DNA of 64,000 nt from Dyella marensis (GTDB lineage Bacteria; Pseudomonadota; Gammaproteobacteria; Xanthomonadales; Rhodanobacteraceae), in contig NZ_FONH01000017.1 of assembly GCF_900112865.1 (NCBI RefSeq), forward strand, positions 35,138-99,137. Reading direction: 5' to 3'. Positions 7,004 through 24,644 of this stretch are shown here, piece after piece; positions within the stretch are counted from its first letter, which is position 1; the number at the start of each line of letters is the position of its first letter. The notes beneath the pieces are model-generated. The model did not search any database. It was not told where the DNA came from and saw nothing but the letters and a program-made list of their open reading frames with translations. Both the position numbers and the translations under genes were made by a program.

Positions 7004-7858
7004 TTGGACCGTATCAGTATCGTTTTGCCGGCCAAGAACGAGGCCGCGGCCCTGAAGACCCTGCTGCCGCGCCTGCGGGCGGCCCAGCCGGACGCCGAGA
7101 TCATCGTGGTGGACGATGGCTCCACCGACGACACCCGCGAGATCTGCGCCGCCGCCGGCGTCCAGTGCCAGTCCTCGCCGTATTCGATGGGCAACGGCGC
7201 GGCGATCAAGCGCGGCGCCCGCGCCGCCACCGGCGACATCCTGGTCTTCATGGACGGCGACGGCCAGCACGACCCCGCCGACATCGCCCGCCTGCTGGCC
7301 AGGCTGGCCGAAGGCTACGACATGGTGGTCGGCGCCCGCGACTGGGGCAGCCAGGCCGGCGTCGGGCGGGGCGTGGCCAATACCATCTACAACTGGCTGG
7401 CGACGCGGATGACGGGGCATGTGGTGGCGGACCTGACGTCGGGGTTTCGGGCGGTGCGTGCGAGCCGGTTCCGGGAGTTCCTGCATCTGCTGCCCAACGG
7501 GTTCTCGTATCCGACCACCAGCACCATGGCTTTCTTCCGCAGCGCGTATCCCGTCGCCTATCTGCCGATCAAGGCCGCGCAGCGCATCGGCAAGAGCCAC
7601 ATCAAGCCCTTGCGCGACGGCATGCGCTTTCTCCTGATCATCTTCAAGATCGCCACGCTGTATTCCCCGCTCAAGCTGTTCGTGCCGGCCAGCGTGGTGT
7701 TCTTCCTGCTGGGCTGCCTCAATTACGCCTGGACGTTCATCCACGAGGGACGGCTGACGAACATGAGCACGCTGCTGTGGAGCGCGGCCGTGATCGTCTT
7801 CCTGATCGGCCTGGTATCGGAGCAGATTACAGCCCTGACCTATCGCCGTGATGCCTGA
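7004..7858 (+). CDS. GT2 glycosyltransferase, polyprenyl-phosphate sugar synthase-like
   Basis: 284 residues. The N-terminal GT-A catalytic domain has IVLPAKNEAAAL, VVDDGSTD and the metal-binding FMDGDGQHDP motif. Two membrane helices sit at the C-terminus (about residues 225-247 and 255-278). This architecture is that of dolichol/polyprenyl-phosphate mannose synthases and GtrB-type enzymes, which load a single sugar onto undecaprenyl phosphate for flipping. The substrate is unknown. A TTG start is chosen because GGGGGAG lies six bases before it; the upstream in-frame region looks non-coding. First gene of the plus-strand sugar operon; its lipid-linked product could feed the GT-C enzymes at 19317-23317 (inference). 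Confidence 0.85.
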   Translation: MDRISIVLPAKNEAAALKTLLPRLRAAQPDAEIIVVDDGSTDDTREICAAAGVQCQSSPYSMGNGAAIKRGARAATGDILVFMDGDGQHDPADIARLLARLAEGYDMVVGARDWGSQAGVGRGVANTIYNWLATRMTGHVVADLTSGFRAVRASRFREFLHLLPNGFSYPTTSTMAFFRSAYPVAYLPIKAAQRIGKSHIKPLRDGMRFLLIIFKIATLYSPLKLFVPASVVFFLLGCLNYAWTFIHEGRLTNMSTLLWSAAVIVFLIGLVSEQITALTYRRDA

Positions 7859-7900
7859 TCCGGACATCGTAGACCGGGCGACCATCGGTATCGATGCCGC

Positions 7901-8860
7901 ATGAAGATCCAGGTATTCATTCCCACCTTCAACCGGGCCGACAAGCTCCGCCGAGCCGTTGAAAGCGTCCTGGCGCAGCCGGTTCCCGGCTTGGAAGTGG
8001 TGGTGCTGGACAATCATTCCGAAGACCGCACGGAAGAGGTGCTCGGCGAGCTGTCGAGGCGCGACGCGCGCATCCGGCATATCCGCCGTCCGCAGAACAT
8101 CGGCATGATTCCCAATATGAACGCCATCCGCGACCTGGTCGATGGCGATTTCTTCGCGATGCTGCCGGATGACGATGTGTACGAGCCCTGTTTCCTGGAG
8201 GAAGCGCTTGAACGCTTCCGGCAGAACGCGGATGTCGATTTCGTCGCCTGCAATGCGCTGACGAAGATCGGCGATCGCGTAGAGAAGAGTCAGCTGGATT
8301 ACTGGCGGGAAGGGCGGTGCGGCAAGGGTACGGCGGTACTGAAGTGCCTGCTCGGCCACTATCCACTGATCACGAATGTCTTGTTCCGTTCGTCATTGCG
8401 GGAGCGCTTCTTCTTCTATCCCGAACTCGGCAATGTCGCAGACGGCTTTATCCTGACCTGCCTGTTTGCCAGCCGCCATTCGTATATATCGAAACGAGTG
8501 ACCGGCTATTGGAATAATGACGGCGAGAATGCTTCTGTGGCGCGCGCGCCGAATCCGGTCGATATCGCGAATGTCGCGTTGAGCGAATATGCGCTCTATC
8601 GAAAGGCGATTTCAGCCGGCGAGCTTCCGGCGCGGTGGCTGCCCGTGCTGGCGCTGAAGCGCAACCTGAGCATCCTGATGGCGTCGAGAAAGATCGGTTT
8701 CGACAGGATTCGCAATGAAAGCCGGATGATGGAACTTGTCCGTCCGTCGACGGTGCTCTGGCTGCGCCTCCTGGATCGCGCGCGAGTGATCGCGATCTTC
8801 GTCGGCGCCTTGAGCTTTGCCCGTAAGTGCTATCGCCGGGTCATGGTCTCTGCCCACTGA
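7901..8860 (+). CDS. GT2 family glycosyltransferase
   Basis: 319 residues, soluble GT-A fold: VFIPTFNRADKLRRAV at the N-terminus, VVLDNHSEDRT, and a DxD-type metal site in LPDDDVYEP (about residue 88). This is the layout of transferases that add one sugar to a lipid-linked or protein-linked glycan; donor and acceptor cannot be read from sequence. It is 42 bases after the preceding GT2 and followed by the CDP-sugar genes, so it probably uses a nucleotide sugar made there. Its second half uses noticeably more A/T than the neighbouring pil genes, consistent with an acquired surface-glycan locus. Confidence 0.85.
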   Translation: MKIQVFIPTFNRADKLRRAVESVLAQPVPGLEVVVLDNHSEDRTEEVLGELSRRDARIRHIRRPQNIGMIPNMNAIRDLVDGDFFAMLPDDDVYEPCFLEEALERFRQNADVDFVACNALTKIGDRVEKSQLDYWREGRCGKGTAVLKCLLGHYPLITNVLFRSSLRERFFFYPELGNVADGFILTCLFASRHSYISKRVTGYWNNDGENASVARAPNPVDIANVALSEYALYRKAISAGELPARWLPVLALKRNLSILMASRKIGFDRIRNESRMMELVRPSTVLWLRLLDRARVIAIFVGALSFARKCYRRVMVSAH

Positions 8861-8914
8861 ACAGTGGCGCGGCGAAGTGCCGGTTGGCTTGATTCTGTTT
8901 GAGGATGGAACATC

Positions 8915-9691
8915 ATGAAGGCAGTGATACTCGCGGGTGGATTGGGAACTCGCATATCCGAAGAGACGCACCTCAGGCCCAAGCCGATGATCGAGATCGG
9001 CGGGAAGCCGATGCTGTGGCACATCATGAAGATCTACTCCGCCTATGGCGTCAACGACTTCGTGATCTGCTGCGGCTACAAGGGCTACATCATCAAGGAG
9101 TACTTCGCCAATTATTTCCTCCACATGTCGGATGTGACATTCGATATCGCCAACAATCAGATGTCCGTCCACGAGAAGCACGCGGAGCCATGGCGGGTCA
9201 CGCTGGTGGACACCGGGGACGACACCATGACCGGCGGCCGCCTGGGGCGTGTCGCTCCTTATGTGAAGGATGAGGAGTTCTTCTTTTTCACCTACGGCGA
9301 TGGCGTGTCCGACCTGGATATCGCCGCGCAGATGGCATTCCATCGGTCGCACGGAAAATTGGCCACGATCACGGCCGTGCAGCCGCCGGGGCGCTACGGC
9401 GCATTGCGCACGGATGGCCATGCCGTCAGCGGCTTCATGGAGAAACCGCCGGGCGATGGCGGGCTGATCAACGGAGGCTTTTTCGTCCTCTCGCCTAAGT
9501 GCCTGGACCTGATCGAGAGTGACGGCACGGTATGGGAACTCGGGCCGCTGTCGCGGCTGGCGGAGATGGGCGAGCTCATGGCGTTCGAGCATCGAGGGTT
9601 CTGGCAGGCGATGGACACGCTGCGCGAAAAAAATGCGCTGGAGGAACTGTGGTCTTCGGGCGCCGCGCCCTGGAAGGTGTGGCATCCATGA
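8915..9691 (+). CDS. rfbF: Glucose-1-phosphate cytidylyltransferase
   Basis: Makes CDP-glucose from CTP and glucose 1-phosphate, the entry step to CDP-deoxysugars. 258 residues, matching RfbF/DdhA. The nucleotidyltransferase signature VILAGGLGTRISEET is at the N-terminus, followed by RPKPMIEIGGKPMLWHIM, with the metal Asp in FTYGDGVSDLD. The stop overlaps the next start (ATGA), so it is coupled to rfbG. Together they commit the locus to a CDP-6-deoxyhexose. Confidence 0.95.
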   Translation: MKAVILAGGLGTRISEETHLRPKPMIEIGGKPMLWHIMKIYSAYGVNDFVICCGYKGYIIKEYFANYFLHMSDVTFDIANNQMSVHEKHAEPWRVTLVDTGDDTMTGGRLGRVAPYVKDEEFFFFTYGDGVSDLDIAAQMAFHRSHGKLATITAVQPPGRYGALRTDGHAVSGFMEKPPGDGGLINGGFFVLSPKCLDLIESDGTVWELGPLSRLAEMGELMAFEHRGFWQAMDTLREKNALEELWSSGAAPWKVWHP

Positions 9692-23955: not shown

Positions 23956-23970
23956 GCAGCTTGCATGCCA
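23956..23970 (-). promoter_or_regulatory. Sigma-54 (-24/-12) promoter of pilA1
   Basis: Minus strand TGGCATGCAAGCTGC has GG and GC at exactly the -24/-12 spacing of the consensus TGGCAC-N5-TTGC. Transcription would start near 23944, leaving a leader of about 115 bases. RpoN control with PilS/PilR is the rule for pilA in related bacteria. The rest of this 321-base gap (23829-24149) shows no gene. Confidence 0.7.
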
Positions 23971-24149
23971 TTTTTGCCGCGGACATATTCCCGCATGGCG
24001 GTGGGGTTAGGAATTGTGCCTAGCTTCACGAAAGCTCACAACGAGTGGGCTGGCAACATCCTAATCGAGTGAACTGTGATCGATCCAACATAAGCTTTCG
24101 ATGTCGTTGTTGGGCAGTAGGTGACGTGTTGCGTCACTCTTGTGAGGGT

Positions 24150-24593
24150 TTACTGCCTGCAGGACGTCGGCAGGTACTTCGGATCGACCGTGCTCCTGGT
24201 GCAGGTCCACGTGATGCTTCCGGCGTGGCTTACCGGCGAAAGCGCCAGGTAAGTACTTGCAGTGTTGATATGCGAATTCGCTTTCGCGGTCTGGAACTTC
24301 ACCTTGACCAACCCGCCGGAGACGTCCACGTTCGAAACATAATTCCCTACGATCGACGTGTTTGTCGCCAGCCCCGCGGACTGGTTATTCGAGGGAAAAC
24401 GACCCGTGTTTGAAACGTAATCCCAAACGGCTGTCTTGGCCCCGGTAGCCAGGCTCATGCCCTCGGCAACCTGCGCACGAATGGCATAGTCCTGATAGGC
24501 CGGAATCGCAATCGCCGCAAGAATCGCAATGATCGCCACCACGATCATCAGCTCGATCAACGTAAAGCCCTTGGCAAGGCGTTGGCGCAACAT
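24150..24593 (-). CDS. pilA: Type IV major pilin-like protein (pilA2)
   Basis: 147 residues, paralogue of the pilin encoded downstream. Leader MLRQRLAKG, cleavage before GFTLIE's Phe, the same 25-residue hydrophobic helix, and a two-cysteine C-terminal loop (WTC ... TSCRQ). The heads share the frame NTGRFP..NQSAGLA, SIVG.YV and DPKYLPT.CR but differ elsewhere, so the two pilins may assemble into different pili or one may be minor. It has its own sigma-54-type promoter. First gene of the minus-strand pilin/glycosyltransferase set. Confidence 0.96.
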   Translation of the reverse strand: MLRQRLAKGFTLIELMIVVAIIAILAAIAIPAYQDYAIRAQVAEGMSLATGAKTAVWDYVSNTGRFPSNNQSAGLATNTSIVGNYVSNVDVSGGLVKVKFQTAKANSHINTASTYLALSPVSHAGSITWTCTRSTVDPKYLPTSCRQ

Positions 24594-24629
24594 AAAAGCA
24601 TCCCCCTGGGTGTCGACGCCCCAGTGAAG

Positions 24630-24644
24630 GCATGTTTTGTACCA
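24630..24644 (-). promoter_or_regulatory. Sigma-54 (-24/-12) promoter of pilA2
   Basis: Minus strand TGGTACAAAACATGC keeps GG and GC at the -24/-12 spacing with one change in the first block (T for C) and one in the second (A for T). Start of transcription would be near 24618, about 25 bases before the pilA2 ATG. Confidence 0.6.

Follow-up and report, generated by a model that had tools for sequence, protein, structure and literature searches.

A locus between pilB and the pilin genes of Dyella marensis predicted to glycosylate type IV pilins

Why do 15 genes for the loading, synthesis, transfer and export of sugars lie between the pilus assembly genes and the pilin genes of Dyella marensis, and which molecule would receive the glycan? 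We examined this locus in a stretch of 64,000 nucleotides, referred to below as the window (contig NZ_FONH01000017.1, positions 35,138 to 99,137), from a genome of 5.0 Mb whose nearest named relatives in our scan belong to Rhodanobacter and Dyella. An original prediction, made from the letters alone, had placed pilB-pilC-pilD at 2696-6767 and two pilin genes at 23388-24593, had described the interval as filled with sugar genes, and had seen neither a Wzy polymerase nor an O-antigen ligase. Profile searches bear this description out: Pfam identified the three assembly genes and both pilin genes at these positions, all five on the minus strand, and Pfam and NCBIfam identified a CDP-sugar set, glycosyltransferases and a flippase among the 15 genes (Table 1), while none of the 15 locus proteins had a Pfam match to Wzy_C, O-antigen ligase, Wzz or a phosphoglycosyl transferase. 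We consider it likely that the locus is dedicated to the O-glycosylation of pilins and that its glycan cassette can be swapped like a plug-in, the pilin modification itself being predicted from gene order and protein families.

Recurrence of the pilin, GT-C and dpm genes

Next to the pilin genes lie gtc1 and gtc2, whose products are predicted membrane glycosyltransferases of the C fold (GT-C) with C-terminal tetratricopeptide repeats (TPRs), and next to pilB lies dpm, the predicted sugar loader. A scan of named genomes yielded 80 related loci, and in 75 of them gtc1 has a pilin gene upstream in the same orientation; in the five loci without a pilin (L013, L033, L058, L067 and L075), no more than 3.3 kb separate gtc1 from the end of its contig. 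The usual order was pilA2-pilA1-gtc2-gtc1, then the sugar cassette, then dpm and pilB. The first four genes occurred in exactly this order in 47 of the 80 loci, and two pilin genes stood directly before gtc2 and gtc1 in 60. Five loci have one or more pilin genes directly before gtc1 and no gtc2, which points to gtc1 as the core enzyme. In 39 loci of the 80, the stretch extends as far as a dpm ortholog, which lies on the minus strand, and pilB follows if enough sequence is available; the other 41 mostly end before the dpm position. Elsewhere in the order, 33 of 37 further GT-C places (20 in a second family, 10 in other families and 7 weaker ones in the window's own family) had a pilin. As a control, 118.5 kb of sequence from six other sites in the window's genome contained no pilin motif.

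The arrangement extends beyond the order. In the class as a whole, 106 of 369 genomes gave a GT-C match (E value of 1e-20), and these represent 84 of the 272 genera searched. We analysed 40 places outside the order with high-scoring GT-C matches, a selection that favours good matches, so that the fractions are not class averages: a pilin was detected by motif in 31 and dpm in 28, and in 25 dpm lay within 700 nt of a same-strand GT-C gene (aligned ends), 22 of these having a pilin as well. Several of these loci read by eye as pilS-pilR-pilA-gtc-dpm, with PilS confirmed by Pfam in L142. The original prediction had proposed a synteny search for pilA-adjacent GT-C genes as a check, and the recurrence of a pilin within the order and outside it favours its reading of a pilin-dedicated glycosylation system, in which pilins would be the fixed partners.

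Some loci carry additional genes. L030 (5784-11953) has the order pilin, GT-C, pilin, GT-C. Extra GT-C genes with a more remote relation to gtc2 (24-29% identity) lie upstream of pilA2 in L007, L009, L011, L012, L028, L034 and L035, and likewise in L038, L040, L041, L042, L050 and L066, giving these strains three or four GT-Cs at the pilin site.

The predicted GT-C proteins and sugar loader

The original prediction had also taken two proteins of the locus as GT-C membrane proteins, a claim that held for the predicted fold and the motifs and found no counterpart in Pfam. Structure prediction gave models of both proteins with folds like those of oligosaccharyltransferases (OST) and protein O-mannosyltransferases (PMT), followed by C-terminal TPRs; the structural matches of these models place both in the GT-C membrane fold, a second structural aligner matched the GT-C part, and an archaeal AglB ranked with the best structural matches for each protein. 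Residues 439-659 of the gtc1 product gave TPR-type structural matches, and Pfam matched TPRs as well. Neither protein matched any GT-C Pfam family up to a limit of E 10 (with filters that drop most matches above 0.1), and DUF1736 gave no Pfam match in six family members under the same limit and filters; among sequences of solved structures, the sole match of the gtc1 product was a designed TPR protein (E 0.37). The GT-C class of the two proteins thus rests on predicted fold and motifs.

Both proteins retain residues that resemble the catalytic ones of the eukaryotic TMTC proteins. An acidic motif in the first external loop, Asp32-Asp33, was present in 60/60 gtc1 and 60/60 gtc2 products and in 100 of 101 GT-Cs from further loci, the remaining one being a gap. 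Together with Arg67, Lys218 and the EHRNY residues, it was invariant in the 60 copies of both proteins, and the whole set was nearly invariant in the 101 GT-Cs, which come from 77 further loci. Motifs M1, M2 (RP), M4 (K-E-T) and M7 (E-R-Y) of TMTC were aligned by eye to gtc1, where they are invariant. We dropped a filing of the two proteins as TMTC, as DUF1736 is absent, and describe them as predicted TMTC-like GT-C membrane transferases.

For Dpm, the best NCBIfam match was AglJ (1.1e-33, 117 bits), well under the cut-off of 325, and the relatives among solved structures were ArnC and dolichol-phosphate mannose (DPM) synthase. Across 299 genomes of the order, a dpm ortholog was found in 143 (E 1e-60) and GT-C in 156 (E 1e-15). 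In raw counts, uncorrected for kinship, 140 genomes had both, 140 neither, 16 GT-C only and 3 dpm only; outside the window's family, the corresponding counts were 68, 137, 15 and 3. Among the better-scoring 98 of the 140 genomes with both genes, the two lay at most 20 kb apart in 94, the exceptions being G236, where 720 kb separate them, and three genomes with the genes on separate contigs; the median distance was 8.5 kb over the 95 genomes with both on one contig. Between dpm and pilB, three loci (L047:17249-18421, L046:17590-18762 and L060:18581-19747) encode very similar proteins of about 390 residues, by eye apparently DegT-type aminotransferases.

Variation of the pilins, gtc2 and the sugar cassette

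Which of the neighbouring genes follow the pilin? Over the 60 related loci, gtc2 distances tracked those of pilA1 (r 0.88) and pilA2 (r 0.92), and gtc1 distances did not (r 0.17 and 0.31, respectively). In windows of 75 columns, r ranged from 0.74 to 0.91 across gtc2 and from 0.02 to 0.36 across gtc1, starting with its first window. The loci fell into three haplotypes (40, 10 and 10 loci) in which the types of pilA1, pilA2 and gtc2 were concordant in 60/60; with the haplotype cut at 0.60, one pilA1 (L045) falls alone. Since r drops sharply between two genes that overlap by 4 bp in the window, the results suggest that function, at the gtc2/gtc1 junction, sets the extent of the co-varying block. 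A quick gtc1 tree required at least 8 pilin-type changes on the best tree, and by this sequence comparison the pilins and gtc2 have probably been replaced as a unit on more than one occasion. Exchange of pilA alleles has been reported in Xanthomonas vasicola, according to the accessible part of PMC4235730.

The minus-strand genes had been described in the original prediction as one run with overlapping codons, from the pilins into the glycosyltransferases. The overlap of gtc2 with gtc1 upholds part of this description, whereas about 70 nt and a hairpin part pilA1 from gtc2. A scan of the region for such hairpins gave 2 sites against a shuffled mean of 1.6, near chance overall; the pilA1-gtc2 stretch folds at z -3.37, with 0 of 200 shuffles equally stable. 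A terminator-like hairpin followed pilA1 in 30 of the 60 related loci compared to 18 of 1200 mononucleotide shuffles, and was present in 1 of 60 control stretches downstream of gtc2.

The sugar cassette changes from locus to locus, while the genes on its two flanks are kept. Comparing the genes within 9 kb after gtc1 in the 60 loci, with families defined at 40% identity on a simple gene caller, we found a mean Jaccard distance of 0.955, and 72% of locus pairs had no family in common. Correlations of cassette content with the pilins and GT-Cs ran from -0.01 to 0.07 and were significant only for pilA1 (r 0.07, p 0.048). The CDP-sugar set found in the window (rfbF-rfbG-rmlC and the C-methyltransferase gene) recurs in 15 of the 80 loci, counted over the length available for each. 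Altogether, the sequence comparison suggests that the pilus sugars vary like O-antigens.

For 39 loci, the cassette was complete from gtc1 to dpm, spanning 3.2 to 9.9 kb. By local hidden Markov models (HMMs), GT2 or GT4 glycosyltransferases were present in 39/39. Exactly one polytopic protein was encoded in 36 of the 39, polytopic meaning at least 200 residues and at least 5 spans predicted by a rough hydropathy count, with the genes called from GC content. A local HMM built from the window's flippase matched in 1 of the 39 cassettes and was too insensitive, so Pfam was applied to the polytopic proteins instead; of 24 of the 36 examined in this way, 13 were MOP/Wzx flippases, 6 PF03706 proteins and 3 ABC exporters, with 2 unassigned. 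Among the 135 proteins of 24 cassettes, the commonest families were GT4 (29), methyltransferases (18), PF01943 (13) and GT2 (13); Wzy, Wzz and phosphoglycosyl transferases were outside the top 25 of 69 families, each with at most 4 proteins. A single polytopic protein per cassette leaves no place for a polymerase next to the flippase.

These data bear on the possibility that an O-antigen or exopolysaccharide locus is merely located in the pil region. O-antigen loci also carry CDP-sugar genes, Wzx and several glycosyltransferases, and the cassettes vary like serotype loci. We nevertheless regard this possibility as very improbable and reject it, given that the locus has no match to Wzy, Wzz, a phosphoglycosyl transferase or a ligase, that one polytopic protein in 36/39 cassettes leaves little room for Wzy, and that its fixed partners are the pilins. 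A further reason is that such genes lie elsewhere in the genome: Wzy_C (WaaL/Wzy-type) matches above the cut-off on contigs C32 and C31, two contigs (C15 and C28) with MOP flippases other than this one, and Wzz on C2 as well as on C28, in the latter case less than 3 kb from the flippase of that contig. The genome thus has other glycan systems besides this locus.

Two observations concern the polytopic proteins themselves. In the smallest cassettes (L010:12734-13699, L047:12055-13020, L063:13009-13980, L068:13259-14266 and L164:9116-10027), Pfam placed the sole polytopic protein in PF03706 (LPG_synthase_TM) or left it unassigned; PF03706 proteins are thus candidate lipid-glycan flippases, a role that we assume by analogy with MprF. 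In L048 (10249-11874), a polytopic domain is fused to a methyltransferase, and the membrane half has no Pfam match.

A predicted pathway and its place among known systems

How might these proteins work together? Dpm would load the same first sugar onto undecaprenyl phosphate in every member, as the conservation of dpm suggests. The cassette glycosyltransferases (starting at 7901, 16200 and 18129 in the window) would then extend it, here with a CDP-derived and probably C-methylated 6-deoxysugar, to judge by RfbF, RfbG, the RmlC-like protein and the C-methyltransferase. The flippase would turn the lipid-linked glycan toward the periplasm, where the TPR domains of the GT-Cs may hold the pilin while the glycan is passed to Ser or Thr of PilA1 and PilA2. 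From the co-variation described above, gtc2 would encode the pilin-type-specific partner and gtc1 the general transferase. The donors are probably linked to undecaprenyl monophosphate, since Dpm is the only sugar gene conserved in place and the locus has no phosphoglycosyl transferase.

A different division of labour has to be weighed here, in which Dpm makes an undecaprenyl-phosphate-monosaccharide and the GT-Cs add that single sugar to the pilin, as in the eukaryotic DPM synthase/O-mannosyltransferase systems; the cassette oligosaccharide would be built on undecaprenyl pyrophosphate via a phosphoglycosyl transferase from elsewhere, or would go to another acceptor. In loci outside the order, pilA, GT-C and dpm often adjoin one another while the remaining sugar genes lie beyond the three, and the TMTC motifs are, in the accessible passages of PMC7801869, those for a lipid-monophosphate monosaccharide donor. 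The genome also has three PF00953 proteins elsewhere, one of them seemingly in a mur-type cluster; PF02397 had no match in the genome assembly. However, the cassettes sit between gtc1 and dpm, glycosyltransferases are present in every complete one and many have MOP- or ABC-type flippases, and phosphoglycosyl transferases are outside the 25 commonest of the 69 cassette families, where up to 4 members could hide. Near dpm, the four compact loci examined outside the order also have a GT4-type gene (L161, L164 and L178) or a DUF354 gene accompanied by a sulfotransferase gene (L155); methyltransferases (L164 and L178) and PF03706 membrane proteins (L161 and L164) were found there as well. We therefore consider transfer of a single sugar unlikely.

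Several findings weigh against a dedicated pilin glycosylation system or narrow what can be claimed for it. In the Foldseek search, TPR proteins ranked first because of the C-terminal TPR domain, and the PMT and OST matches were weak (E of about 0.016). The Glu of motif 4 is replaced by Ala in 39 of 60 gtc2 products, the window's included, which lends something to the idea that the GT-Cs assist pilus assembly as accessory proteins and lack transferase activity, as TfpY-like proteins do, and that the sugar genes are bystanders; pilin-accessory genes are indeed not all transferases, as the available part of PMC11841053 indicates. The invariance of the Asp pair, Arg67, Lys218 and the EHRNY residues in both proteins, their near invariance in 101 more, and the close co-occurrence of GT-C with the sugar loader make this idea highly improbable. 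Further, dpm is missing from 16 of the 156 genomes with GT-C; 9 of the 40 places outside the order have no pilin motif, two of these (L163 and L165) having a tblastn pilin match; and 3 of the 39 complete cassettes (L046, L072 and L078) encode no polytopic protein. A search for conserved acceptor Ser/Thr residues gave several candidates per pilin type, and no single site stood out. The lipid-monophosphate carrier is the weakest step of the pathway.

The matching of gtc2 to the pilins is limited in similar ways. Strongly supported branches of the gtc1 tree force only 2 changes per type, and physical linkage of the 3-kb block can explain part of the matching. Beyond what gtc1 explains, the link between pilins and gtc2 is weak in the large haplotype (partial r 0.15-0.25) and mixed in the two small ones (0.22 to 0.61), which speaks against fine-scale co-evolution; hence, we state the matching between types only. 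The content of the cassette shows hardly any correlation with pilin type (r 0.04 and 0.07). Glycan genes moving independently of pilA had been named in the original prediction as what would contradict it, and this was found in part: which sugar genes a locus holds is independent of its pilin type, but the site of the variation stays the same, from gtc1 to dpm-pilB. With these points weighed, a pilin O-glycosylation system remains the reading that we favour.

We also put forward, tentatively, a wider proposal: that a class-wide pilA-GT-C-dpm core assembles an oligosaccharide on undecaprenyl monophosphate, which GT-C O-oligosaccharyltransferases with TPRs would transfer en bloc to type IV pilins. 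In this proposal, a serotype-like cassette is plugged into the core, a second GT-C specific to the pilin type travels with the pilin, and the whole would be a bacterial counterpart of archaeal AglJ-AglB and of eukaryotic DPM synthase-TMTC.

Table 1. Features of the pil region in the window, with position, strand and supporting profile or remark
Feature	Position	Strand	Profile or remark
pilD, pilus peptidase	2696-3562	-	Pfam A24
pilC, platform protein	3635-4948	-	Pfam T2SSF
pilB, assembly ATPase	5046-6767	-	Pfam T2SSE
dpm, DPM/AglJ/ArnC-like GT2, predicted polyprenyl-phosphate sugar loader	7004-7858	+	PF00535; TTG start
GT2 glycosyltransferase (cassette)	7901-8860	+	PF00535
RfbF, glucose-1-phosphate cytidylyltransferase	8915-9691	+	TIGR02623, 458 bits (equivalog cut-off 300)
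RfbG, CDP-glucose 4,6-dehydratase	9688-10758	+	TIGR02622, 458.6 bits (equivalog cut-off 278)
RmlC-like sugar 3,5-epimerase	10751-11311	+	PF00908, 1.7e-51; under the RmlC equivalog cut-off (NCBIfam)
Sugar C-methyltransferase	11308-12540	+	PF08421 and PF08484
Hexapeptide acyltransferase-type protein	12537-13025	+	PF00132
Short-chain dehydrogenase/reductase (SDR) sugar epimerase/dehydratase/reductase	13022-13834	+	PF01370
CmcI/rhamnosyl O-methyltransferase-type protein	13828-14592	+	PF04989, 6.6e-72
Wzx/MOP-type flippase	14671-16164	+	PF01943, 1.2e-19
GT2 glycosyltransferase (cassette)	16200-17222	-	PF00535
SDR sugar epimerase/dehydratase	17219-18136	-	PF01370
GT4 glycosyltransferase (cassette)	18129-19307	-	PF13692/PF00534
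gtc1, predicted polytopic TMTC-like GT-C with C-terminal TPR domain	19317-21296	-	GT-C found in all loci of the set
gtc2, predicted second polytopic GT-C with TPRs	21293-23317	-	Matched to pilin type; 3' end overlaps gtc1 start by 4 bp
Intrinsic-terminator-like hairpin, pilA1/gtc2 gap	23334-23362	-	12-bp stem and T run
pilA1, type IVa major-type pilin, predicted acceptor	23388-23828	-	PF00114 and PF07963 (N_methyl)
pilA2, type IVa major-type pilin, predicted acceptor	24150-24593	-	PF00114 and PF07963 (N_methyl)

Farther along the window, a single protein encoded at 53738-55477 combines a GNAT domain (PF13444) with an acyltransferase domain (PF19576), and may be an ornithine-lipid-type bifunctional acyltransferase. 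A tRNA-Asn gene (60913-60989) lies about 2.7 kb before a minus-strand frame at 63703-63999 that runs off the window end and looks by eye like a transposase/integrase core, possibly of a mobile element; from 62 kb, the stretch that includes this frame, GC content falls to 0.56-0.57.

If the proposed function is true, the TPR-bearing GT-C core, seen in 84 genera and next to pilins in most loci examined, would be another enzyme class targeting pilins, bacterial TMTC-like proteins would gain a function, and loader and transferase would form an enzyme pair tolerant of many glycans. Variation of the pilus sugars would also bear on pilus-specific phages and surface recognition. Pilin O-glycosylation as such is known, and the accessible portions of PMC12645811 and PMC11841053 ascribe it so far to the ligase-like TfpO, TfpM, PglL and PglS and to TfpW; in the open-licence PubMed Central literature, we found no published account of TPR-bearing GT-Cs with pilins.

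TfpW, the GT-C arabinosyltransferase of the group IV pilin of Pseudomonas aeruginosa, is likewise encoded next to pilA, with a terminator downstream of the pilin gene and an accessory gene matched to pilin type, and the pilin-accessory cassettes of Pseudomonas have a terminator between the pilin and the accessory gene, as far as the available text of PMC11841053 describes them. Compared by description, the GT-Cs here differ in having TPRs, in being mostly paired and in their linkage to a DPM-like loader and a variable cassette. TfpO/PilO, TfpM, PglS and PglL share periplasmic pilin O-glycosylation, often with gene linkage to the acceptor, but, in the accessible parts of PMC12645811, they have a WaaL-like domain related to O-antigen ligases, for which the window proteins gave no match, and TfpO and TfpM use a C-terminal Ser/Thr acceptor. 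The window's pilins lack such an acceptor, PilA1 ending in CR and PilA2 in CRQ, and in a tally of the commonest endings in the 60 related loci few were Ser or Thr (for instance RS in 4/40 type-A PilA2 and RT in 2/40 type-A PilA1). A filing as TfpO/TfpM was dropped, both the Wzy_C domain and the C-terminal Ser being missing in the window. In X. vesicatoria, the pilB-pilC interval resembles the locus by description in having sugar genes beside a pilin gene; an EamA transporter and two glycosyltransferases are listed there, without a glycosylation hypothesis in the available passages of PMC10333488, whose main text contains no word starting with 'glycosylat'.

The remaining likenesses are to systems with other acceptors or in other domains of life. 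Three-component systems of GtrB, flippase and GT-C share, here by family and predicted fold, the polyprenyl-phosphate-sugar synthase, the flippase and the GT-C (PMC11127046, in the part available); unlike them, the locus has several cassette glycosyltransferases, so that probably an oligosaccharide instead of one sugar is transferred, and the acceptor is likely a protein. TMTC1-4, eukaryotic O-mannosyltransferases, share the N-terminal GT-C domain, the C-terminal TPRs and, in an alignment by eye, the DD, RP, KE and E-R-Y motifs, as given in the accessible part of PMC7801869; here DUF1736 is unmatched, and the acceptors would be pilins, not cadherins. The haloarchaeal AglJ-AglB pathway is akin in both of its enzymes, AglJ being the best, sub-cut-off NCBIfam match of Dpm and an archaeal AglB a structural match of the GT-Cs. 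Haloarchaea build an N-glycan on a lipid monophosphate; unlike theirs, the system described here is bacterial, predicted to be O-linked, and apparently dedicated to pilins.

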